From the NCBI GenBank assembly GCA_024277755.1, contig JAJRUN010000067.1, forward strand, positions 1 to 51,165: 51,165 nt of DNA, read 5' to 3'. Source of the DNA: Gammaproteobacteria bacterium (lineage in GTDB: Bacteria; Pseudomonadota; Gammaproteobacteria; Tenderiales; Tenderiaceae). The notes under the pieces are model-generated. The model saw nothing but the letters and a program-made list of their open reading frames with translations. It had not been told where the DNA came from and searched no databases. The position numbers and the translations under genes were made by a program. Of the stretch, positions 8,603-35,998 are shown one piece after another; within the stretch, counting starts at the first letter, position 1; each line of letters opens with the position of its first letter.

Positions 8603-8974
8603 TCACCAGCGGCTGCCAATGCTGACGTAGAAAAATGGGCGCACCTCCACATCGATAGCTTTGTTTGAATCCTCTGGAAACTCCAGAGACACAGCGCCAA
8701 TGCTAAGGTTAAGTTCGTCCCGTTTGGGTGAGCCTATGTTCATGGCTACGTTGATACGATCATCAGCTGATTGAACTTGTTCAAAACGGGATTTGTATTG
8801 CCGGGAATTGAATGCAAAGTTGAGGCTGCTGGGTTGTTTTTGTCCAGCGTTTTTTAACTGGGTCAGGTGTGAGTGTTGAGTATTTTCTGAGAATGAAGCA
8901 GGTTCTGCCTGGACTGGATTGATCAAGCTTAGGCCGATAAGAGAGGCGGCGATTTGGTATTTTTTAATATACAT
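8603..8974 (-). CDS. Small secreted protein of unknown function
   Basis: I do not recognise this 123-residue protein. ATG at 8974 is preferred over an upstream TTG at 9004 because AAGGG lies just before it and the product then begins with a clean signal peptide (MYIKKYQIAASLIGLSLINP, cleavage probably after PVQA near residue 23). The mature part is polar, then has an amphipathic beta-rich C-terminus (LNLSIGAVSLEFP, FFYVSIGSRW) ending in Trp. Alternating strands and a terminal aromatic residue recall outer-membrane proteins, but it is too short to be a usual barrel. It converges on dbpA with a 50-bp gap. Confidence 0.65.
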   Translation of the reverse strand: MYIKKYQIAASLIGLSLINPVQAEPASFSENTQHSHLTQLKNAGQKQPSSLNFAFNSRQYKSRFEQVQSADDRINVAMNIGSPKRDELNLSIGAVSLEFPEDSNKAIDVEVRPFFYVSIGSRW

Positions 8975-9319
8975 TCTTATCCCTTGGCTTTGTGTTTTGC
9001 TCAATGTTTATTGAGGGCTGTACTGTTCTCGATTATGCGTAATATTTCAGCGCCTGGCCGTGCCTCAGGTCACAATTTAGCCATTTTTCGTCAACGCATC
9101 GGCCGATAGAGTTGTATCGGCATAAGCGGTGGTGTCCTTTAGCCGGTTGTTGAAATTATACTCAGATGGCACGCGGGGCGTTAAAATCCGTCTCATACCC
9201 AAAGCGCGGGCACAAAAAATGCTCATTTATTACCCATAAACTGCGCTTGTTCACCAGGTTTTCCTTGCTTTGCGCTCACCTGAGCGAACTTCAACAGTCT
9301 GTAGCTAAACAGTCGCGAG
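8975..9319. other. Non-coding gap with a hairpin and a possible intergenic repeat
   Basis: This 345-bp gap has no convincing gene. A perfect 7-bp stem (9102-9108 with 9115-9121) has no T tract. The stretch 9166-9319 is open in one plus-strand frame, but the putative peptide is rich in Lys, Arg, Ser and Cys and looks like translated non-coding DNA. It may be a conserved intergenic element. Confidence 0.4.
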
Positions 9320-10639
9320 TTACAACTTTTCCTTCTTGGCAATTTTTGACACTTTCCAAGGTGTCCACGGGTCATGGTATGAGACCTTGTGTATAAACTC
9401 CATTAAGTAGGCATAGGTGCGGACTATCCTCAAAAACAGACCGGTGTAAATGGGCATCAGGGGAATGAAAGCGATCAGCTTTAGCTCTGTTTTGGTGAGT
9501 TTATCTTTAATTACCAGACAGCCGACGACGAATTGCAACAGGTTGGCCATGGTGTATAGCAGGTAGTTGATGAAAAATATCACTGGAATCCATTGGGCGC
9601 TGAAGATTATGATTTGGATAATGTATATCCACCATTTCAGGTTAAGTAGCAGGTTGAAGAAGATATTTTCAAAGGATGAAATAAAGTTTACGGCGATAAA
9701 AGACTTGCTGGGCAGGAAGATGTCTTTGTGCTTGCGGACACGAAAGCGCACCATGGAACGGTCCCAACGAAAGCGTTGTCTTGCCAGTTTTGAAAAGTTG
9801 ATCGGTACGTTGGTGTAGCAGACGGCCTCCGGTTCGTGGATGACACGGTAACCCAGTTTGCGAATCTTCAGGGTGATATCGCCATCCAGTCCCGGGCCTA
9901 CGTCCCAGCCGTAAATACGCTCCAGTACGTCACGCTTGAATGCGCCATGGGCACCAGCAATAATTCTTAAAATGCCGAGGTTGGATGATACTGTGCGACC
10001 GATGGTAATTGATTTGAGGTACTCAAACGCTTGCAGGCTGGTGGCCAGGCTTGCCTCGGTATTGGCGACACGAACATCGCCACCCACTGCACCAATGTTG
10101 GCATCGAGAATAAAGGGCAGGATGATTGTTTCAATGGTGTCGTGTGCCAGGTGCGAGTCGGCATCAATGTGGACAATGTATTTGCCTTTGGAATAACGCA
10201 GTGCGGTGTTTGCCGCCGAAGCTTTGCCGCCGCGAACATTGTTGCGGATGAAACGGTTTATTTTGCCTTCTTTTTCGAGCTTGCGGCAGATATTTGGTGT
10301 GTCGTCATCTGAGCCGTCGTCGACAATAACCAATTCAATATTGCTATAGGTTTGATGCTGCAGTGATTCTGCCAGTTTTGGAATGTGGCGTCCTTCATTT
10401 TTTCCGGGAACAATAACCGAGACCAGTGGCTTTTCTTTGAAAAGTCTGGCTCTGGCGCGTGTGCGCAGGGCTTTGTCACGAATACGTTTTGGCATGTGAT
10501 AGACGAGGATAATAATATCCGCCAGCACGTAGCGGATAATGTAGATAAAGAAAAAGGGCCAAAAATAGGCGATAACCTTCCAGAAGGTTAGCTGCTCGAT
10601 AAAATCAAGTGCTGTGTCGATCAACATGACTCTTCTCAT
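9320..10639 (-). CDS. Family 2 processive glycosyltransferase (exopolysaccharide synthase)
   Basis: This predicted inner-membrane polysaccharide synthase belongs to the PgaC/hyaluronan/cellulose synthase class. Two N-terminal membrane segments (about 18-50) precede a cytoplasmic GT-A domain (about 70-300) with VIVDDGSDDD (105-113), HIDADS (157-162), a GLDGD acidic motif (250-254) and the processivity motif QRFRW (288-292). Several C-terminal membrane segments (about 320-420) probably form the channel. It is last in a four-gene operon and overlaps the zinc-ribbon/GGDEF gene by 35 bp. A second ATG at 10627, preceded by purine-rich GAGAAGAG, is an equally possible start and would shorten the protein by four residues. 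The polymer cannot be predicted. Confidence 0.88.
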   Translation of the reverse strand: MRRVMLIDTALDFIEQLTFWKVIAYFWPFFFIYIIRYVLADIIILVYHMPKRIRDKALRTRARARLFKEKPLVSVIVPGKNEGRHIPKLAESLQHQTYSNIELVIVDDGSDDDTPNICRKLEKEGKINRFIRNNVRGGKASAANTALRYSKGKYIVHIDADSHLAHDTIETIILPFILDANIGAVGGDVRVANTEASLATSLQAFEYLKSITIGRTVSSNLGILRIIAGAHGAFKRDVLERIYGWDVGPGLDGDITLKIRKLGYRVIHEPEAVCYTNVPINFSKLARQRFRWDRSMVRFRVRKHKDIFLPSKSFIAVNFISSFENIFFNLLLNLKWWIYIIQIIIFSAQWIPVIFFINYLLYTMANLLQFVVGCLVIKDKLTKTELKLIAFIPLMPIYTGLFLRIVRTYAYLMEFIHKVSYHDPWTPWKVSKIAKKEKL

Positions 10640-12026
10640 GCAGGAATGTGTCCAGTAGAGCGGTCACATCCATATTGGCGGCTATCTGCTCAATATGTGT
10701 ATCAAAGGCAGGTGTGATGTCCAGGTTGCTCTTCATCAGTTCGGTGACACCCTGCTGAAGTCGTTCCAGGGCCCGTTCGGCATTGTTGGCGCTGGTTTCC
10801 GTCATCAAGATCAGGAACAGGGTTTCATTGATGGCGGTAATAACATCTGATGTTCTGAGGATGGATTTGAATACTGCGCTTAACTCATGAAATACATCCT
10901 TGGCTTTGTCGCCGAGCTTGATATAAATTTCATCCAGTTCGTTGATGTTGACCAACACTAGGGAGGTTGTGCTTAGTTTATAACGGCTGATGCGTGCGCT
11001 TTCGAGTTTCAGGTACTCCTTGAAGACGGCTTCGCTGGTGAGTTTTAGATCGGTGCTGAGTATGTTGCTGAATAGGCTTTCCATGCCGTAGACCGCAGCA
11101 TTCTGGCCTAACGATGTGACATTATAGTGCTCAATGGTGCGATTGATTTGATCCTCAGGCGATGTGGTGTGGCCACAGTTGTAGCAACTGCAAATGACTT
11201 CAGGATCTTGGAAAACGTGTGTGCAATCGTTGCAATGGTAAATGATTGACGGTTTATCATAGTCGACGCCAATGTGGCGCAGTTGCTGTTCACATTTGGG
11301 ACAGCTCAGGTGATTGCCAATCTGAAACTCAGATAGCTCGCCGGTATAGGCACATTTGAAATGGTGTACCAGCTCGTCAATTTTAAGGTTGCCTGAATTG
11401 CAGTGTGGGCACTGCTCTTCAAAGTTGAGAAAGGCACTTTGGCATGAGCTGCAAAAATAGGCTTGCTTAAAGAATCGCCCTTGAAGCAGTCGCTGCCCCT
11501 TTAGATATTGAAGTGTTTCTATGGTGCCAATATCGCGGATAGCAAACAACGGCTCTAATACCGGGTATAGAAAACCATGAGGGTCACTGCTGGTCATTAT
11601 CGGGCTGAACTCTTTGCTGCGGCTGGCCATGAACCTAAGCACGCGAAGCGCGATATTTCGATCTGTCGAGCCATCGGCAGCGGGTAAATTTTCTATCCAG
11701 TGGTTGATGGGATGGAAGCTGGAAAGCAGTTTTTTTGCATATTCATTGTCAAACTCATCTTTCAACAGGGTTCTGTCAGATTGACTGGGCGCTGCGTTGC
11801 GGGGTTTGTCGGACACCAGACTAACAATGGGACGTAAGTAGATAAGCGGGTTCTGCGAGGCGCGAATTGTGTGCTGAGTGTTTGGCAGGTCTTCATCATC
11901 GCCATCAAGTACCCAGTAGGCGACATTACTGGCGTCAAATGATTCCAGTGCGTTTAATTCAATTGTGGTCATGAATTGAGGTGCTCGTGTAGCACCGGGG
12001 CTAACGATGTAATAGGCTTGCTTCAT
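10605..12026 (-). CDS. TackOD1-like zinc-ribbon protein with degenerate GGDEF domain
   Basis: The 473-residue product has no membrane segment. The middle (about 190-290) holds twelve cysteines at 192, 195, 206, 209, 225, 242, 245, 265, 268, 279, 281 and 284, mostly in CxxC pairs, as in zinc ribbons of the TackOD1 type. The C-terminal part (about 335-450) follows a GGDEF fold (LVNINELDEIYIKLGDKAKD, then VFHELSAVFKSIL), but the active-site position reads NETLF instead of GGDEF. RTSD at 391-394 stands exactly five residues before that position, where canonical proteins have the inhibitory c-di-GMP site RxxD. I infer a catalytically dead c-di-GMP receptor, by analogy with PelD. It overlaps the HlyD gene by 4 bp. 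Confidence 0.75.
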   Translation of the reverse strand: MKQAYYIVSPGATRAPQFMTTIELNALESFDASNVAYWVLDGDDEDLPNTQHTIRASQNPLIYLRPIVSLVSDKPRNAAPSQSDRTLLKDEFDNEYAKKLLSSFHPINHWIENLPAADGSTDRNIALRVLRFMASRSKEFSPIMTSSDPHGFLYPVLEPLFAIRDIGTIETLQYLKGQRLLQGRFFKQAYFCSSCQSAFLNFEEQCPHCNSGNLKIDELVHHFKCAYTGELSEFQIGNHLSCPKCEQQLRHIGVDYDKPSIIYHCNDCTHVFQDPEVICSCYNCGHTTSPEDQINRTIEHYNVTSLGQNAAVYGMESLFSNILSTDLKLTSEAVFKEYLKLESARISRYKLSTTSLVLVNINELDEIYIKLGDKAKDVFHELSAVFKSILRTSDVITAINETLFLILMTETSANNAERALERLQQGVTELMKSNLDITPAFDTHIEQIAANMDVTALLDTFLHEKSHVDRHST

Positions 12027-12994
12027 AGCGTGCTACCTTTGACTTTGACCTGTAGTTGTTCAAATTCGCTCCATTGCGCATAGGCCTCATCAGAGGTGGG
12101 GATAATTTTTGCAATGACCTCGCCTTCTTTGGCGCCGGGGATTTTTGATGTTTTAGTCACGGAGTGGGTGGATACAACTTTTCCGCTGCTGATGCTGCCA
12201 TCGGGCAGGATGATTTCAAGTACCGGTTTGGCCATCAGTTGGCGTAGCTCATCTTTATGGAAGGCTGCATGGATGTAGACCGTTGCGTCATTACTCACCA
12301 GTGTGGCGATCGCGCCGTTACGGGCAGCGACTTCATACAGGTTGATATGCAATTGATGAATGCGGCCACTAATAGGGCTGAATATCTGTTTGTCTTCACA
12401 AACGCTAGAGCTTTCCTGCTTTGCCCGTTTGACTTTGTGGCGGAAATAGTTGTTCTTTTGCGCATCGATTTCGCGCGTCAGCCTGATAATATGGTGCTTC
12501 AGTTTTTCGATATCACGTTTGGCGAGATCACGCGCACGGTTGTATTCTTTGTCGATTTCAAGCGCTCTGCGAATGACCCTGTCATCGATTTGCTGAGTTT
12601 TGAAAGCCAGTTCTTCGTTAAGTGATTTCAGTTTGGCGCGGTTAAGGTGGATTTCGAATTCAAGGTCGTCACCACGGTTGTCTATTTTTTTCGTGCAGAC
12701 CTTGCTCGATTCAATAATTGCAATCAGGTCGCCAGCTTTGATCTGCTGGCCTGCGTTAATGGGAAGTTGAATGACCCGTCCGGCCAGGGGGGTGCTTATG
12801 GCTAAGGTGTCTATTTCAATGTAGCCACGACCCTCATAGCTGAAGTGGCGCATACCAAGGGTATAGATCAGGTAGGAAATGATGAAGATCAGAAACCCGA
12901 AATAGAGCAGGCGGGTGATAGAAGGTGCGGTCTTCTTTGGTGGCACCCCTTCATCACCGGTGGTAATGACGCTTTGGCGGTTACGGATTCTCAT
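12023..12994 (-). CDS. HlyD-family periplasmic adaptor (membrane fusion protein)
   Basis: The 323-residue product has a short cytoplasmic N-terminus, one membrane helix (about 28-48), and a first half-lipoyl segment (STPLAGRVIQLPINAGQQIKAG, split as STPLAGRVIQLP and INAGQQIKAG). A charged coiled coil (about 85-165) and a second half-lipoyl segment (FSPISGRIHQLHINLYE) follow, then a beta domain ending in KVKGSTL. Adaptors of this type link an inner-membrane pump or synthase to a TolC-like exit duct. It overlaps the upstream TolC-like gene by 14 bp and the downstream gene by 4 bp (ATGA). No ABC or MFS pump lies nearby, so the glycosyltransferase is the likely inner-membrane partner, as with Alg44 or BgsB. 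Confidence 0.85.
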   Translation of the reverse strand: MRIRNRQSVITTGDEGVPPKKTAPSITRLLYFGFLIFIISYLIYTLGMRHFSYEGRGYIEIDTLAISTPLAGRVIQLPINAGQQIKAGDLIAIIESSKVCTKKIDNRGDDLEFEIHLNRAKLKSLNEELAFKTQQIDDRVIRRALEIDKEYNRARDLAKRDIEKLKHHIIRLTREIDAQKNNYFRHKVKRAKQESSSVCEDKQIFSPISGRIHQLHINLYEVAARNGAIATLVSNDATVYIHAAFHKDELRQLMAKPVLEIILPDGSISSGKVVSTHSVTKTSKIPGAKEGEVIAKIIPTSDEAYAQWSEFEQLQVKVKGSTL

Positions 12995-15014
12995 TGTTTT
13001 CTCCGCCTGTGTAGTCTGACAGTTTGTGCAGGCCGAAGTTTTTAATTGCCAGCTCTTCGTTGATATATTCCAGGTTTTTTTCTAGCGCCCATTCATCCGG
13101 ATAGTCAACGATGCGCTGTACCAGTGTCACTTTGGTATCAGCCAGCAATGGCAGCAGACGTGACAGACGTTTCACATGGGTTTTGGGGTTAGCCGTTTCG
13201 TAACTCATGATGTAGGCTCGATCGACTAATTTGGCGATCTGCTGGTAAGTCTCGTCCGGCCAATGGGTGGGCAGCGCGACGCTCAGTTGACCAAGCGGAG
13301 TCGCTCGGCGCAGCTGGGTTAGCATATCCAGATACAATTGCAAATATTTTTCTTTGTTGTCTTGATAGCCGGGCAAGGTGTGTGGCTCTATATCCAAATG
13401 GACGCGACCTGTTTTCGCCATCGCTATGGCGGTTTTTATTTCGGCACGGCTGCTGTTTTCAGGAAAAATCCACTGGTTATTGGACAGCAGCATTTCAACT
13501 TTTATTTGTTCTCCGTCAGCCAGGTTGATAAAACGCGTCAGTTTGTCCGTATTTGTTTTGTTGCCTGCCGAGATGATGGCGCGCTCAATGCCTTTCGTTT
13601 TTAAAATATTGATCAAGGTTGGGTTGTCGGTGTTGTTGAAACCATTTGACCAGATATAAATCGCCCGTGTGCCTACACGACTGCGATAACTGTCTGTTTT
13701 GACCGAGGCACGATAGATATATTCGCGGCTATAGGGCAGGTGGGCGGTGTGAAATATTTCATTCACCCGGCGATAAAGCTCTTCTTTTGCTTTGATGAGT
13801 TCAATGGCGGCAGACAGTTGGCTGCGCATATGAATAATGATTAGCGCCGGGTTGATGGTTTCACCCAGTGCCTTTTTAGCCAGGGTGCGACGCAGACGTT
13901 CTTTGGCGATCATATAGCGGTATTGCTGCGTGATGGTGCGCTCTTTCTGTTCAGTCAGACCGTTATAGACAGTGCGTGTGCGACTCAACCGTTCCCACAG
14001 GACATAACGTGCTTGCTGTTCAAATGAGTTGGCTTGAGTGGTGTAACGTTCGGTATTAATCTTTTGTTTTTCGAGTGGCACAATGAAACGGAAACCGATG
14101 GCGGTGTCATCGTTGCCATTATTCTCTATATCCAGATCCTGGCGCAGAAAAAGACGAAATGTATTTGGATGATCTGCCTGAGTACGTTGTCGTGATTCTT
14201 TGAGTTCAAGTGAGGCGATGGCCTGAGGTAATTTGTCATTGCGAATCGCTTCGGAGAGAGCGGCCATATCCAAGTCAATGATGGGCGGGTTGATCAGTTG
14301 GCTGATATGTTTATCAAAGCTTGGATCACCGTGAAGGTAATTGAGTTCGCTATGCAGTACACGTGCATCAGCTTCGGCTTCCAGGGCATCATCAAGCTGG
14401 CTCCAGCCTTTGAAATAGGCGCGTCGCTCAATACTGTTAACCTGTTGCATCAATTCCAGTTTGAGTTGAATCAAAGCTGCCCGTGTACCGCTAAAGATGC
14501 GGCTGATGTTGTAGCGCTGGCAGCGGGTATTGGCACTTAGCCTGTCATGGCGTTGTTTGAGCTCTGTCAAAAGGGCGCGTATCTCAAGAGCATCAACGCG
14601 ATCACGATTTTCAAAATAACCATTTTTGAGTAGATCCCAGTCAAGCTCCAGGTAGGCGCTGGAGTCACCGTCATCATCGATGACTGTGCGATTGGTGTAG
14701 CCGCCGCGCAGGGTGAGCCCCGTGCGCTTGCCATAGTCACGGGCTTCTGCACGCAGCACTTTCGAACGGTGAGTTTCCGGGGCGGGAAAATCGCAATTCG
14801 ATTCGAAAATAGAGTGAGCAGCCTCTATTTTTTTCGGTTCTTGCATAAGCCGGTTATGCCTCTCATGCAGGTTGTTGATGAGTTGCAATAGTCGCTGCTC
14901 TTCGCTGAGAGGCGGTTCCTGGCTGATGGCCAGGCTTGAACCGACGGCAAGCATTATGCCTATGAGTGTGGTTAGCAATGAGGACTTCGTTGAAATTCTT
15001 TTCACACTAATCAA
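12981..15014 (-). CDS. TolC-like outer-membrane protein fused to a glycoside-hydrolase-like domain
   Basis: The 677-residue product begins with a signal peptide (about residues 1-30, ending SSLAISQ). Residues about 35-430 are long helical, charged segments interrupted by strand-like parts (GLTLRGGYTNRTV, TFRLFLRQDLDI, AIGFRFIVPL), the pattern of TolC/outer-membrane efflux proteins. From about residue 440 a different domain starts (RAIYIWSNGF). It has HLDIEPH near residue 540 and AYIMSYET near residue 610, resembling the acidic and Tyr motifs of GH18-like TIM barrels. It is first in a four-gene overlapping operon. The start is TTG 15014 or GTG 15005; the GTG is better spaced from GGA. The fusion suggests a duct with a polymer-trimming domain, which is inference. 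Confidence 0.75.
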   Translation of the reverse strand: MISVKRISTKSSLLTTLIGIMLAVGSSLAISQEPPLSEEQRLLQLINNLHERHNRLMQEPKKIEAAHSIFESNCDFPAPETHRSKVLRAEARDYGKRTGLTLRGGYTNRTVIDDDGDSSAYLELDWDLLKNGYFENRDRVDALEIRALLTELKQRHDRLSANTRCQRYNISRIFSGTRAALIQLKLELMQQVNSIERRAYFKGWSQLDDALEAEADARVLHSELNYLHGDPSFDKHISQLINPPIIDLDMAALSEAIRNDKLPQAIASLELKESRQRTQADHPNTFRLFLRQDLDIENNGNDDTAIGFRFIVPLEKQKINTERYTTQANSFEQQARYVLWERLSRTRTVYNGLTEQKERTITQQYRYMIAKERLRRTLAKKALGETINPALIIIHMRSQLSAAIELIKAKEELYRRVNEIFHTAHLPYSREYIYRASVKTDSYRSRVGTRAIYIWSNGFNNTDNPTLINILKTKGIERAIISAGNKTNTDKLTRFINLADGEQIKVEMLLSNNQWIFPENSSRAEIKTAIAMAKTGRVHLDIEPHTLPGYQDNKEKYLQLYLDMLTQLRRATPLGQLSVALPTHWPDETYQQIAKLVDRAYIMSYETANPKTHVKRLSRLLPLLADTKVTLVQRIVDYPDEWALEKNLEYINEELAIKNFGLHKLSDYTGGENNENP

Positions 15015-15180: not shown

Positions 15181-15768
15181 CTAATCGGGTTTACAGCACA
15201 TTTTGGGTTTTAGTATCAGTGCGGCAAGGGCACCACTGATCGCGCCGTAAAGATGTGAATCGACCACCACCGGGCCGCCAGCCATGTCGGCAGAGCCGGG
15301 TAAAGCGCCGATGCTTTGTTCCCAAAGCAGTTTGCCAGCGATGGCTGCCAGCAGGATGGCTTCGCGTCGATCGCCGCGACGAATAGCACCTATTGCACCG
15401 GCAACAAACAGGCCGTGTAATACGCCGGACAGGCCGACATACCAGACCAGCTCTGGATTGAGGAATATTAGTCCCAGGCTGACCGATAGACTGCTGATAA
15501 GAGAGATTAACCACCATTGCCAGTTTGAAAAAAAGCGCCAGAACAGTCCCCATATCAGCCCCAGCCCTAGCAGGTTCATTAATGTGTGTGACCAGCCTAA
15601 ATGAACCAGGTTGGCACTGATCAGTCGCCATATCTCGCCAGTCTTTATATTGGCAACCTGATAACGCAATAGTTCGGTCATGCTGCTGCCTGCGATGGCC
15701 AGTAATAATGCAGCCAGTGCCAAGGCCAGCGGTAGGCTGTGTTGTCGAAAAAACGTTCTATTGAACAT
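15181..15768 (-). CDS. rrtA: Rhombosortase-like rhomboid intramembrane protease
   Basis: From ATG 15768 the product has 195 residues with about six membrane segments. It shows the rhomboid features GEIWRLISANLVHLGWSHTLMN (split as GEIWRLISANLV and HLGWSHTLMN), the catalytic Ser in YVGLSGVLHGL and the catalytic His in VVVDSHLYGAISG. WYVGLSGVLHG and the VVVDxHLYG ending are characteristic of rhombosortases, which process GlyGly-CTERM proteins. No GlyGly-CTERM protein is seen in this window. The gene follows glnD after 4 bp. An upstream extension of the frame overlaps glnD and reads as nonsense, so ATG 15768 is preferred although its ribosome-binding site is weak. Confidence 0.8.
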   Translation of the reverse strand: MFNRTFFRQHSLPLALALAALLLAIAGSSMTELLRYQVANIKTGEIWRLISANLVHLGWSHTLMNLLGLGLIWGLFWRFFSNWQWWLISLISSLSVSLGLIFLNPELVWYVGLSGVLHGLFVAGAIGAIRRGDRREAILLAAIAGKLLWEQSIGALPGSADMAGGPVVVDSHLYGAISGALAALILKPKMCCKPD

Positions 15769-15772
15769 TTGT

Positions 15773-18427
15773 TTAGCTATCAAGCAAGGTGACAATGCTA
15801 ATGCGCAGCTTGTTGAGCAGTGCTTCATCCTTGATGGGTTGCTGGTTGTTGTGGCTAATGAAAAAAACATCTTCAACCCGTTCGCCAATGGTGGTGATTT
15901 TTGCATTTTGCAGGTGTACATCGCACTCCATTAGCGCTAAACCAATTTTGGATAGTAGCCCCGGGCGGTCGGCGGTGATGATCTCCATGACGGTGCGGTG
16001 GTTGTGGTCGTCATGATTGAAGTTGACACGGGTGTGGGTGTTGAAGTGTTTTAGTTGGCGGGCAGTGCGCCTGGTAGCGTGTTTCTTCGTGAAATCTGAT
16101 TGTGCCAGTTCATTTCTGAGTCGGTTGATGATCGCTTCAATCCGTTGACTGCTGCTGATGGCTTCGCCATTTTCTTCCAGGAGCACATAGGTGTCGAAGG
16201 CGTAGTCCTTACTTGAGGTAATGATGCGGGCATCGGCGACATTCAGGCCAAGCTGTTCAAAAATGCTGGTGCTGGCGGCAAACAAGTGGCCGGCAATCGG
16301 CATGTGAATGAATATCTCGGTGCCACCCCCCTGGCTGTGTTGCTGGGCAAGGATCAGCGGGAACTCATGTCCGGCATTGGCAATGATTGCCTCGGTGTGC
16401 CAGACAATTTCATCAACCGAGTGGCGGATAAAGTACTCCTGGCTGAGCGAGTTCCAGAGCTTATCAATGGCCTCATCAGGCACGCGTTGTCCAGATAACA
16501 GTTCGCGTGCCTGTTGTTGATTGTTTTCACACTGTTCGGTTTGGGCCAGCGGGTTTTCCAGTCCACGGCGAAAGGCACGGCGGGTAGCGTTATAGAGCTG
16601 TTGCAATAGTGAAGCCTTCCAGCTGTTGCAGATGGTGTGGTTGGTGCCGCGCATGTCTGCCAGTGTTAACAGGTAGAGGTAGTTGAGCCGGTTTGAATTG
16701 CCAACGATGGAGGCAAACTCAGCAATCACCTCCGGATCACTGATGTCTTTGCGCTGGGCGGTGCTGGACATAACCAGATGATGTTTCACCAGCCAGGCAA
16801 CGATGTTGGTGTCGTAGTTGTTTAGGCCGTGATGCCGGCAAAAATCGATGGTGTCTGCGGCGCCCAGTTCAGAGTGATCACCTCCCCGACCCTTGGCGAT
16901 GTCGTGAAACAGGCCGGCGAGGTAGAGCAGTTCAGGTTTGGGGATCTTTTTTATCAGTTTGCTGCAAAAGGGCAGCTCATGAGCATGAATGTCCAGCGTC
17001 ATGCGGCGCAGGTTGCGAACCACCATCAGGATGTGTTCATCAACAGTGTAGATGTGAAACAGGTCGTATTGCATCAGGCCAACGATCTTGCCAAAGGCGG
17101 GGATATAGTTAGCGAGAATGCCATAGCGATTCATTCTGCGCAGTTCATGGGTGATGCCGGCAGGCTGACGCATGATTTCCATGAACAGGCTGCGGTTGCG
17201 CAGATCATTACGGAATGTGTCATCGATGAGGTGGCGGTGGTTGCGGATAAGGCGAATGGTTGAAGCCCTGACGCCTTTGATTGCAGGGTGCTGTTCGATG
17301 AGTAGAAAAATTTCCAATAGGGCAAACGGATAGCGCTTGAAGATGTTTTCGTTGGTGGCTTCGATAAAGCCCTTGCTGATCTGGAAACGTTTGTTGATGG
17401 CGGCTGGTTTGCCGTGTTCGTCAGTGTAAAGAATGGCTTCCTGAAACAGTTGCAGCAGCATCTCGTTGAGCAGGCTGAGATCCATGATGGTGCGGTAATA
17501 ATCCTTCATGAATTGCTCAACGGCCAAGTGGCTGCTTTCATCGTGATAACCAAGCATGTCGGCCAGACTGCGCTGATAGTCGAATAGCAGGCGGTCTTCA
17601 TGGCGCTTGGTGAGGATGTGTAAGCCGAAGCGAACCTGCCAGAGAAAATTCTGGGCTTCGATCAGGTGAAGGTGTTCTTGCTCAGTGAGAAAGTTGTGTT
17701 TGACCAGGTCGTAGAGCGTTTCGGCATTGAAGTGGCGCTTGGCTACCCAGCCAATCATCTGCATGTCGCGCAGCCCCCCCGGGCCTTCCTTGATGTTGGG
17801 TTCAAGGTTATAGCCACTGTCGTCATATTTGTTGTGGCGGCTGATCTGCTCTTGCCGTTTTGCCTCAAAAAATTCGCGGCTGGTCCAGAGTTTGTCCGGG
17901 CCGGTCTGCTGGCGCATGATTTCAAATAGATCCTGTGGCCCGATCAGGGGGCGAGCCTCCATTAGATTGGTGGCGATGGTGATGTCGTCGCGAGCAGCGT
18001 CAATACACTCCCGGATAGAGCGCACGCTTTGGCCGACCTCCAGGCCGATGTCCCACAGGAACATAATGAACATCTCCAGGGCCTCGCGGTAATGTGCGTG
18101 GTCGTCATTCCTGAGCAGGATCAGTATGTCGATATCTGAGCCTGGATGAAGTTCGGCGCGGCCATAGCCACCAACGGCGATCAGGGCAATATCGAGATCA
18201 TTGGCAGGGAAATAGTCCCGCCAGGTCAGATTTAGAACCTGATCAATCAGTTCAGCGCGCAGGTGTACCAGCTCAGCGGCTTGCTGGCCGTCAATAAAAC
18301 GTTGTTTTATCGTCTGGTGTGCTTTTTTGAGACAGTCACGATAGACCTGGACGGCGGCATTGCCTTCGCTTAACCGCTTGTTGAGCTCGGTTGTGTCGAG
18401 GATTGATTCTGGATGTGAAGTATTCAT
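15773..18427 (-). CDS. glnD: Bifunctional uridylyltransferase/uridylyl-removing enzyme GlnD
   Basis: GlnD senses glutamine and adds UMP to, or removes it from, PII proteins (GlnB/GlnK), controlling nitrogen assimilation. The 884 residues match the family. The nucleotidyltransferase motif GGYGRAELHPGSDID is at 86-100. The HD phosphohydrolase motif LFHDIAKGRGGDHSELG lies near residue 515. Two ACT domains follow (about 700-775 and 805-884, the second starting RTVMEIITADRPGLLSKIG). It is located 15 bp after map, the usual gammaproteobacterial pairing. Confidence 0.97.
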   Translation of the reverse strand: MNTSHPESILDTTELNKRLSEGNAAVQVYRDCLKKAHQTIKQRFIDGQQAAELVHLRAELIDQVLNLTWRDYFPANDLDIALIAVGGYGRAELHPGSDIDILILLRNDDHAHYREALEMFIMFLWDIGLEVGQSVRSIRECIDAARDDITIATNLMEARPLIGPQDLFEIMRQQTGPDKLWTSREFFEAKRQEQISRHNKYDDSGYNLEPNIKEGPGGLRDMQMIGWVAKRHFNAETLYDLVKHNFLTEQEHLHLIEAQNFLWQVRFGLHILTKRHEDRLLFDYQRSLADMLGYHDESSHLAVEQFMKDYYRTIMDLSLLNEMLLQLFQEAILYTDEHGKPAAINKRFQISKGFIEATNENIFKRYPFALLEIFLLIEQHPAIKGVRASTIRLIRNHRHLIDDTFRNDLRNRSLFMEIMRQPAGITHELRRMNRYGILANYIPAFGKIVGLMQYDLFHIYTVDEHILMVVRNLRRMTLDIHAHELPFCSKLIKKIPKPELLYLAGLFHDIAKGRGGDHSELGAADTIDFCRHHGLNNYDTNIVAWLVKHHLVMSSTAQRKDISDPEVIAEFASIVGNSNRLNYLYLLTLADMRGTNHTICNSWKASLLQQLYNATRRAFRRGLENPLAQTEQCENNQQQARELLSGQRVPDEAIDKLWNSLSQEYFIRHSVDEIVWHTEAIIANAGHEFPLILAQQHSQGGGTEIFIHMPIAGHLFAASTSIFEQLGLNVADARIITSSKDYAFDTYVLLEENGEAISSSQRIEAIINRLRNELAQSDFTKKHATRRTARQLKHFNTHTRVNFNHDDHNHRTVMEIITADRPGLLSKIGLALMECDVHLQNAKITTIGERVEDVFFISHNNQQPIKDEALLNKLRISIVTLLDS

Positions 18428-33592: not shown

Positions 33593-35998
33593 ATGGACTT
33601 TAGACGATTATCTCTGCGCAGTATTATCGCCTTGTTCATGTCTCTTATGAGCATGATCCTGGTCGTGACGGCTTGGGAGGTTTATCGTGACTCTGCCTTG
33701 AAAAGCCAGCAGCAATCACTTCAGGAGGTGCTTGAACGTGAGGTCAAACGCAGCCTCAAACAGCTACAACAGAATATCGAGACCATGGCCATCAGTGCCC
33801 AGCAATCGGTTGAATTCAGGCGGGCACTTACAAATGAAAACCTTAAGGCCCTGACAAAATCGTTAGATGAGCAGTTTCGGCGCCAGCCTGTTACCTCGGG
33901 TGAAGTCAATCTAATCCAGTTGTATGCCTACTCTAAAAATTTTGAGGTGCTGGCCTGGTCAAAAAATGGTCCTTTCGTCAGGGATGGGTTAGGCATTATT
34001 TGTCAAGATATGGCAGATGTCGCCAGATTGCGCCAAGGTGTAGAACAACTGAAAGTTCTTGCAGGGTTGTGTCAGTGGCGGGGGCAAAGTTTTCTGTCAG
34101 TTATTGTTCCTGTGGGTGGAATCAGGCATCAAGGCTATTTTCAGCTTATTGTAAACCCGTTAATGAATCTTGCAAAAATGGACACCTTTCTGGAAATGCC
34201 CATCAAAATCAACCTTGCCAGCGGTGGTGTGGCTTATCGTTCACAAGACTGGCATGTCGGCGATGAAGGCAAGGATTATGTCTCAGTAAGTCATCGGCTC
34301 AAAAGTGATGGCGGAGAGCCGCTGGCAGAAATTATTTTGCAACGTGAATTAAGCCTGTTTAACCAAAACCTGGCGACCAGTCGAAATTACCTGATGCTGC
34401 TTGCCGGTATTGTGACGCTGATTATGCTTGGGCTGGTGTTGTGGGTCTTGCACACCTCAACAGTGAGGCCTATCAGGAAAATAATCAGTCAGTTAAACAA
34501 TGTGCGCAATGACCGGCGTCAGCTTGGCACGCCCGTGAGCCTTAGTGGTAATGCCGAATTGCGTGAGTTGGTGCAGGTGTTTAACGATATGAGTCAGGAG
34601 TTGAATAAGGTTTACGATGAATATGAAACCCTGGCCTTTACTGATCAGCTGACCAGCCTGCCTAACCGGGTGCTTTTTCTTGACCGGTTGTCGCAAATCA
34701 TTCTGCTGAGTCAGCGCAAGGGTGAAAAGTTCGCTGTAATGCTGTTGGATCTGGATGGCTTCAAGGAAATCAATGACACCCTGGGCCATTACGTCGGTGA
34801 TGAACTGCTGCTGCAGATTGCGACGCGATTACAGCGAATTATTCGTGCCTCATCGACAATCGCCAGAGTGATTGACAATCATGCCGTTGCGGCTTCAGAA
34901 AATATTACCCCAGGTTTGGAAGAGAGCACCATTGCCCGTCTTGGTGGCGATGAATTTGCCATACTTTTGCCTAATCTTACCGGGGTTGAAGGGGCACTAT
35001 CGGTTGTAAAACGTATCTCCGATGCATTTGAAGAACCGATCAAAATTGATGATAACGTGATTGTGGTTTCAGGCACATTGGGCGTGTCAATGTTTCCTGA
35101 ACACGGTGAAAATGCAGAGTCTTTGTTGCGTCGCGCTGATGTGGCTCTATATGTAGCTAAGCACCTGCAAAATGATTTCTCCGTTTATGATCCCGCCTAT
35201 GATAATAACAGTGTCAAACAGCTGGCCCTCAAAGCAGAGTTGCGCAGTGCTATAGAAGAAGATCAGATGGTGCTGTTTTATCAGCCTAAACTGGATCTGG
35301 AACGCGGTTGTGTTGGCTCTGTCGAAGCTCTGATACGCTGGCAACATCCCGAGCGTGGCATGATTCCACCCGATCAGTTCATTCCTCTGTCAGAACAAAG
35401 GGGATTGATTGGACCGTTGACTGAGTGGGTCATTCAGCGTGCCTTGCAGCAATACAAAGAGTGGCAGCAGCAGGGGGTGTTCATGCAAATTGCGGTCAAC
35501 CTTTCTTCACGAGTTTTATATGACCTAAGCTTGCCAAACAAAATAGAGGGCTACCTGTTTGATTTACAGCTGCTGCCTTCGGCCCTGAGCCTGGAGATTA
35601 CAGAAGAGGCCACCATGATCGACCCCGAGCGTGCCTTGATTATTCTGAATCGTCTGAGGGATATGGGGATATCGTTATCAATTGATGACTTTGGTACAGG
35701 GCATTCATCACTTAGTTATCTAAAACGTCTGCCAGTGGATGAAATCAAGATCGACCGTTCGTTCGTTATGGAAATGGCAAGCTCTGATGATGATGCCAAT
35801 ATTGTGCATGCCACCGTGGATCTGTCTCATAATCTGGGTTTGAAGGTTGTGGCCGAGGGGGTTGAAACGGCAGAGGTCCTGAATATATTGAAAGAGCTGA
35901 ATTGCGACTATGCACAGGGTTATTATCTGAGTCGGCCTGTGCCAGCCGATGAGTTAATCAAATGGCTGGGTGCATCAGACTATCAATGTAAACTTTAA
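33593..35998 (+). CDS. Membrane-bound GGDEF-EAL protein (c-di-GMP turnover)
   Basis: The 801-residue product has a membrane helix at about 8-28, a periplasmic sensor domain (about 30-260), a second helix (about 264-288) and a HAMP-like linker (about 290-345). A GGDEF domain (about 350-520) has intact [11 protein letters not shown] near residue 450. The EAL domain (about 540-795) has all main motifs: VEALIRW near 576, [25 protein letters not shown] and VAEGVET. The EAL domain should be an active phosphodiesterase. The GGDEF domain carries about 25 extra residues just before RLGGDEF and lacks an I-site. AGAGGACGA precedes ATG 33593. It could act on the same c-di-GMP pool as the polysaccharide operon at 9320-15014. 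Confidence 0.92.

Follow-up and report, generated by a model that had tools for sequence, protein, structure and literature searches.

When a membrane glycosyltransferase of the GT2 family is encoded in one operon with a HlyD-type adaptor and a TolC-like channel, and with no ABC, RND or MFS pump gene inside that operon, the question arises as to what such a gene set makes and by which route the product would leave the cell. This combination is found in a gammaproteobacterium of the family Tenderiaceae, on the stretch of DNA analyzed here (the window, 51,165 nucleotides), which is an entire contig of a 2.65-Mb assembly comprising 153 contigs with an estimated completeness of 85%. We consider it probable, at roughly 0.7, that the locus is a divergent operon of the Mxd type and serves to make a c-di-GMP-dependent matrix polysaccharide of the synthase-dependent kind, with a HlyD to TolC-like exit.

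Organization of the locus

The operon consists of four ORFs, all on the minus strand and running from 15014 to 9320, with successive overlaps of 14, 4 and 35 bp by ORF calling. From the promoter side these encode a 677-aa fusion protein, a 323-aa HlyD protein, a 473-aa soluble TackOD1/GGDEF protein and a 439-aa GT2. The features discussed below, with the evidence for each, are:

12981..15014, minus strand: gene 1, predicted TolC-like channel with a GH18/PgaB-like TIM barrel (ORF, AF2 models, Foldseek, OEP match in the homologue L079)
13725..14927, minus strand: gene 1, modeled TolC-fold domain, residues about 30-430 (AF2 model, Foldseek)
13005..13673, minus strand: gene 1, modeled TIM-barrel hydrolase-like domain, residues about 448-670 (AF2 model, Foldseek, weak PF00704 match)
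13386..13394, minus strand: gene 1, D541-x-E543, probable catalytic pair, invariant in the alignment
12023..12994, minus strand: gene 2, HlyD-type periplasmic adaptor in the MxdC position (ORF, Pfam; iterated HlyD HMM matches in relatives)
10605..12026, minus strand: gene 3, MxdA-like protein with TackOD1 zinc ribbons and a degenerate GGDEF domain (ORF, Pfam, MxdA identity)
11118..11663, minus strand: gene 3, TackOD1 domain, with 11 Cys and one His invariant in a ten-sequence alignment (Pfam, alignment)
10845..10856, minus strand: gene 3, RTSD, the kept RxxD inhibitory-site motif, predicted to bind c-di-GMP (alignment of 66 homologues)
10815..10829, minus strand: gene 3, NETLF in place of GGDEF, the dead diguanylate cyclase active site (alignment of 66 homologues)
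9320..10639, minus strand: gene 4, MxdB-like membrane GT2 (ORF, Pfam, motifs, MxdB identity)

An initial annotation made from the sequence alone had proposed this layout, and its ORFs, strand and overlaps were all recovered here, while its domain calls were borne out by Pfam for genes 2-4 and by fold models and Foldseek for gene 1. Defence-system models had zero matches in the window, and a promoter and terminator scan proved unreliable, with promoter-like sites no commoner than in shuffled sequence. About 315 bp downstream of the GT2 gene, on the same strand (8603-9004), lies an ORF for a 133-aa protein with a signal-peptide-like start and no Pfam match. Elsewhere on the contig, at 33593-35998, an 801-aa HAMP-GGDEF-EAL protein is encoded, a possible c-di-GMP turnover protein.

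The regulator and the synthase are related to MxdA and MxdB

The closest known system is mxdABCD of Shewanella oneidensis, described as a putative exopolysaccharide cluster that is required for three-dimensional biofilm, its mutants being defective in aggregation too, with MxdB annotated as a GT2, MxdC as efflux-like and MxdD as a conserved hypothetical protein (PMC3691769). Binding of c-di-GMP by MxdA and its interaction with CheY3 are reported in two further papers (PMC7666153, PMC11395469). We found the S. oneidensis locus by way of published promoter primers: Pmxd-fw-300 has a single perfect match across 130 Shewanella genomes, on a 4,969,811-bp contig, and the tested primer cores lie in order just upstream of the mxdA ORF. 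This ORF encodes TackOD1 (4.7e-71) and a degenerate GGDEF domain, and is followed by genes for a GT2, a HlyD protein and a 122-aa protein. In direct comparison, the TackOD1 protein of the window (hereafter A) shares 30% identity with MxdA over 267 aa (E=4e-30), and the GT2 of the window (B) shares 28.5% identity with MxdB over 445 aa.

Inspection of the 473-aa A protein identifies a TackOD1 domain (PF18551, E=1.6e-54) followed by a GGDEF remnant (PF00990, 8e-8). The segment from the inhibitory site to the active site reads RTSD-VITAI-NETLF, which places the RxxD motif five residues ahead of the dead active site, and neither GGDEF nor GGEEF occurs in the protein. Among 66 homologues, counted as A proteins adjoining a GT2 gene, both the R and the D of the RxxD motif are kept in 63, and the GGDEF motif is present in none. 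Retention of RxxD together with loss of GGDEF is a pattern that marks a receptor as opposed to an enzyme; the dead GGDEF domain proposed in the initial annotation thus holds, with the inhibitory site retained.

The name TackOD1 was given to a functionally uncharacterized output domain of archaeal response regulators, noted in some bacteria too (PMC5847659). This, along with the loss of one or both RxxD residues in the three other homologues, leaves room for A to act alongside the synthase in a structural or metal-sensing capacity, its c-di-GMP control having disappeared in the lineage of the window. We consider this highly improbable, given that RTSD in the window stands at the exact I-site spacing, as in S. 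oneidensis MxdA, which is reported to bind c-di-GMP (PMC7666153). By eye, the first about 110 residues of TackOD1 proteins (e.g., L084:9001-9330) resemble a degenerate receiver domain (DVVLLDMP...LR), with no Response_reg match by Pfam in this N-terminal part; if real, a receiver-like N-terminus would fit the archaeal REC-TackOD1 proteins.

The 439-aa B protein matches the GT2 family (PF00535, 3.7e-27), and the nearest named model is PgaC/IcaA (TIGR03937, 8e-48, below the cut-off of that model). The D, DxD, xDxD and QRFRW motifs are all kept, hydrophobic segments flank the catalytic domain on both sides, and no PilZ domain is detected by Pfam. The protein scores 160 bits against MxdB over 445 aa, as compared with 126 bits against PgaC over 272 aa. 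Membrane GT2 enzymes do not all make long polymers, and a search of the open-licence literature returned no product for any Mxd system and no chemical characterization of its polymer; the enzyme could hence be imagined to make a short glycan or to modify a surface glycoconjugate, still gated by the c-di-GMP receptor. Several observations speak against this, and we regard it as quite improbable: the enzyme has a QxxRW motif and flanking membrane segments, the named models closest to it are PgaC/IcaA and NodC, and mxd mutants are affected in aggregation and biofilm formation (PMC3691769).

A predicted TolC-like channel fused to a hydrolase-like barrel, and the HlyD adaptor

The 677-aa protein begins at a TTG start codon with a signal-peptide-like N-terminus, and in a profile search no family model matched it above its own cut-off. 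In the full-length AF2 model, the N-terminal part shows four β-strands arranged as two hairpins, together with long helices at 127-201 and 321-379, and Foldseek matches it to TOprJ1, VceC, TolC and OprM with E about 1e-8. The Pfam OEP cut-off is passed by a Pseudomonas homologue (L079) and missed by the window protein itself. As modeled, this part of the protein has the hairpin pair and the long helices that each protomer of the TolC/OEP fold contributes.

The C-terminal barrel (mean pLDDT 88.9 in the AF2 model) matches PgaB in Foldseek at 4.1e-8; GH18 chitinases and GH18-type enzymes also match, and other TIM barrels score similarly. With PF00704 the barrel reaches 17.5 bits against a cut-off of 29.6, and the full DxxDxDxE motif of GH18 is absent, only its terminal D-x-E and an M-x-Y being invariant in the alignment; the invariant residues are W455, W515, D541, E543, M603 and Y605. 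The modeled barrel is, therefore, GH18/PgaB-like in fold only. A glycosidase is its natural reading, and hydrolase activity is predicted from the fold. In Methylocystis the hydrolase and TolC proteins are encoded by separate neighboring genes beside the same core, and in some Pseudomonas the hydrolase part alone is present. The occurrence of both split and fused forms argues that channel and hydrolase work together.

The 323-aa protein encoded between the fusion and the regulator has a HlyD_3 match (1.2e-9, Pfam) and a single N-terminal membrane segment. Its direct BLASTP match to MxdC is weak (E=0.001 for a single comparison), and hence it could be an independently recruited adaptor.

Phyletic distribution and gene neighborhoods

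A scan of a genome collection with the window A protein as a single query recovered no relatives. A conserved peptide pattern from an alignment of seven relatives recovered 442 A-protein relatives, the best 80 of which were examined; the layouts and counts that follow refer to these best 80 of 442. The first layout, A-B-C (with C the HlyD protein) without a linked TolC, is found in Vibrio, Photobacterium, Aliivibrio, Aeromonas, Shewanella, Pseudoalteromonas and Rheinheimera, and the second, A-B-(TolC/hydrolase)-C, in Pseudomonas, Stutzerimonas, Vreelandella and Marinobacter. The layout of the window, (TolC/hydrolase)-C-A-B, recurs in two further genomes, one of the same family (L014) and one of another family (L013), with about 65% GT2 identity between the window and these two. 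That the four families recur, arranged as in the window in two genomes and in one alternative arrangement in several named genera, indicates that the operon is more than a chance assemblage. Intact A-B pairs occur in 65 operons; an iterated HlyD HMM detects a HlyD gene within the gene run of 60 of these, and a TolC/hydrolase protein or its hydrolase part is encoded in 15. These linkage counts are lower bounds, because antisense ORFs from the simple gene caller cost some high-GC Pseudomonas loci their GT2 or HlyD calls.

Trees of the A and B proteins agree on a deep split, which sets the window together with L013, L014 and Methylocystis as sister to all other Mxd proteins, with some long branches and unsure joins in this lineage. 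Given this deep, long-branched group, the functions of A and B in the window may have shifted. Searches of six further, mostly incomplete, genomes of the genus found no TackOD1 protein, and one of four other genomes of the family has it. In relatives, glnD and a rhomboid-like gene are followed by other genes instead of the operon, and in the one family member with the operon it lies at another place. This patchy distribution, together with the differing genes after glnD and the rhomboid-like gene, suggests that the operon was probably acquired horizontally. The rhomboid-like gene of the window (15181-15921) was considered as an operon member and rejected, as it follows glnD in relatives that lack the operon there.

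Several neighborhoods merit mention in their own right. In Aliivibrio (L032, L031, L033), EAL-GGDEF and CHASE-GGDEF genes precede the mxdA-like gene in the same gene run, which fits c-di-GMP control, and in A. fischeri one contig has, at a distance of about 14 kb, another mxd-type operon (L037). A gene for an NAD-dependent epimerase/GalE follows the HlyD gene in four loci (L084:13698-14648, L088:13534-14481, L074:14967-15899, L006:11556-12566); such a gene is a recurrent neighbor of the operon in some Pseudomonas, as also on a plasmid of Rhodobacteraceae, and hints, though no more than that, at possible use of a galactose-type sugar. In Photobacterium (L023:1915-8846, and the same region in L021 and L041), genes for a Lap-type system of adhesin secretion (OEP, OmpA, a LapD with EAL, and an ABC transporter) stand immediately before an mxd-type operon, such that two c-di-GMP-linked biofilm systems adjoin.

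Proposed export without a linked pump

HlyD and TolC proteins normally partner ABC, RND or MFS pumps, and this raises the prospect that the same core is present here while the HlyD/TolC pair serves an unlinked pump and exports a protein, lipid or drug, the polymer leaving otherwise. The mxd-type operons of Shewanella and Vibrio, which are without a linked TolC, and the three Photobacterium genomes in which the operon adjoins an ABC secretion system could be taken in its favor. However, no pump is consistently linked across the 65 operons (among the best 80 of 442 relatives), a result on which the pump-free proposal of the initial annotation depended. The one ABC transporter that shares a gene run with the core is that of the Photobacterium Lap-type system, a layout seen at three loci, one of which was checked by Pfam, and this neighbor carries its own HlyD and OEP genes. 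A MacB/FtsX-like gene upstream in Aliivibrio was likewise discounted as a linked pump; the 406-238-414 gene block to which it belongs is presumably lolCDE. Further, the linkage of HlyD to the GT2 and TackOD1 genes in the great majority of operons, and the fusion of the TolC protein to a glycosidase-like fold, which would fit a polysaccharide load, both count against service to an unlinked pump, which we regard as unlikely.

We return, then, to the Mxd-type reading, in which the c-di-GMP-controlled exopolysaccharide system suggested by the initial annotation gains support from the homology of A and B to the mxd proteins, the kept RxxD and the gene linkage. The MxdB-like GT2 would polymerize a nucleotide sugar and thread the chain across the inner membrane, with the cytosolic MxdA-like TackOD1/dead-GGDEF protein predicted to bind c-di-GMP at RxxD and switch the synthase on. 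Across the periplasm, the HlyD adaptor, which occupies the MxdC position, might connect the synthase with a trimer of the TolC-like protein, and the hydrolase-like barrel on the channel could trim or release the polymer at the exit. We infer that the product is a polysaccharide and that it leaves by way of this GT2-HlyD-TolC-like channel.

For the Mxd machinery, relatives that combine a dedicated TolC-like channel with a hydrolase-like fold in one protein point to a specific GT2 to HlyD to TolC export route, and the fusion suggests that cutting of the polymer can take place as it exits. Additionally, the domain makeup of MxdA, a reported c-di-GMP effector, is defined as TackOD1 plus a dead, RxxD-bearing GGDEF, and one tractable question now connects over 400 relatives from sequenced species. 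More tentatively, and at somewhat less than even odds, Mxd-type systems may constitute a widespread pump-free class in which a c-di-GMP-gated GT2 feeds a HlyD protein and a TolC-type channel, with the hydrolase built into the channel in the branch of the window. If true, TolC-fold channels would gain a role in pump-free polysaccharide export.

Comparison with known systems

The window and mxdABCD have in common a TackOD1/dead-GGDEF protein, a GT2 and a HlyD protein in a single operon, with RxxD kept and GGDEF lost, and in the window an MxdB-type GT2 gene adjoins the mxdA-like gene, the two overlapping by 35 bp. They differ in gene order, A-B-C-D as opposed to (TolC/hydrolase)-C-A-B, with identity of only about 30%. 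The S. oneidensis operon is without a linked TolC or hydrolase, and its MxdD, at 122 aa, has a single membrane span and lacks a Pfam match; it is not a TolC, and the window has the TolC/hydrolase gene instead. A query with the window protein found no TolC/hydrolase relative in three Shewanella genomes, a search that would miss a remote relative. An mxdD-like gene is absent from the window operon, and the other A-B-C operons have no constant gene of similar size either; for want of mxdD, the locus is named Mxd-type and not an mxdABCD operon. Binding of c-di-GMP and the biofilm phenotype are reported for S. oneidensis only (PMC7666153, PMC3691769).

The suggestion that no described system has exactly this gene set fails for the core, as mxdA, mxdB and mxdC have been studied and mxdABCD shares three of the four families. 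It stands for the TolC-like/hydrolase fusion, no operon-encoded example of which was found described for an Mxd-type system in the open-licence literature. As the core is known and export through GT2, HlyD and TolC has been proposed for the Xcs system (see below), neither the core nor that idea is new; the new part is the TolC-like/hydrolase fusion inside an mxd-type operon, the four-gene set itself being widespread in Pseudomonas, Stutzerimonas, Vreelandella and Marinobacter.

Likeness to PgaABCD, which makes PNAG, lies in PgaC as the nearest named GT2 model and in PgaB as the nearest glycosidase structure to the fused barrel. PgaABCD differs in having a porin of another type (PgaA) and a partner subunit (PgaD), with no HlyD or TolC. 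Among other systems, PelD is a dead-GGDEF I-site receptor, and Alg8/Alg44 pair a GT2 with a HlyD-like partner (Alg44); to our knowledge, the Pel and alginate systems are without TackOD1 zinc ribbons or a TolC-fold exit.

In Thermosynechococcus and other cyanobacteria, the XcsAB-TolC system for cellulose (Maeda 2018), as presented in a 2025 review, combines a GT2, a HlyD protein, a TolC and a glucanase (PMC12430437). It thus shares with the window a GT2 synthase, a HlyD adaptor, a TolC-type channel and a hydrolase-like part, along with the same proposed synthase-adaptor-channel export. On that account, the Xcs GT2 carries a PilZ domain, suggesting c-di-GMP input, whereas the window has a separate TackOD1/GGDEF receptor and a GT2 without PilZ; further, the Xcs TolC lies outside the operon and the hydrolase is not fused to the channel, whereas in the window both reside in one operon-encoded protein. 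The same review calls the Xcs GT2-HlyD-TolC export model experimentally unvalidated, and the two systems share the question of whether TolC-type channels carry polysaccharides.
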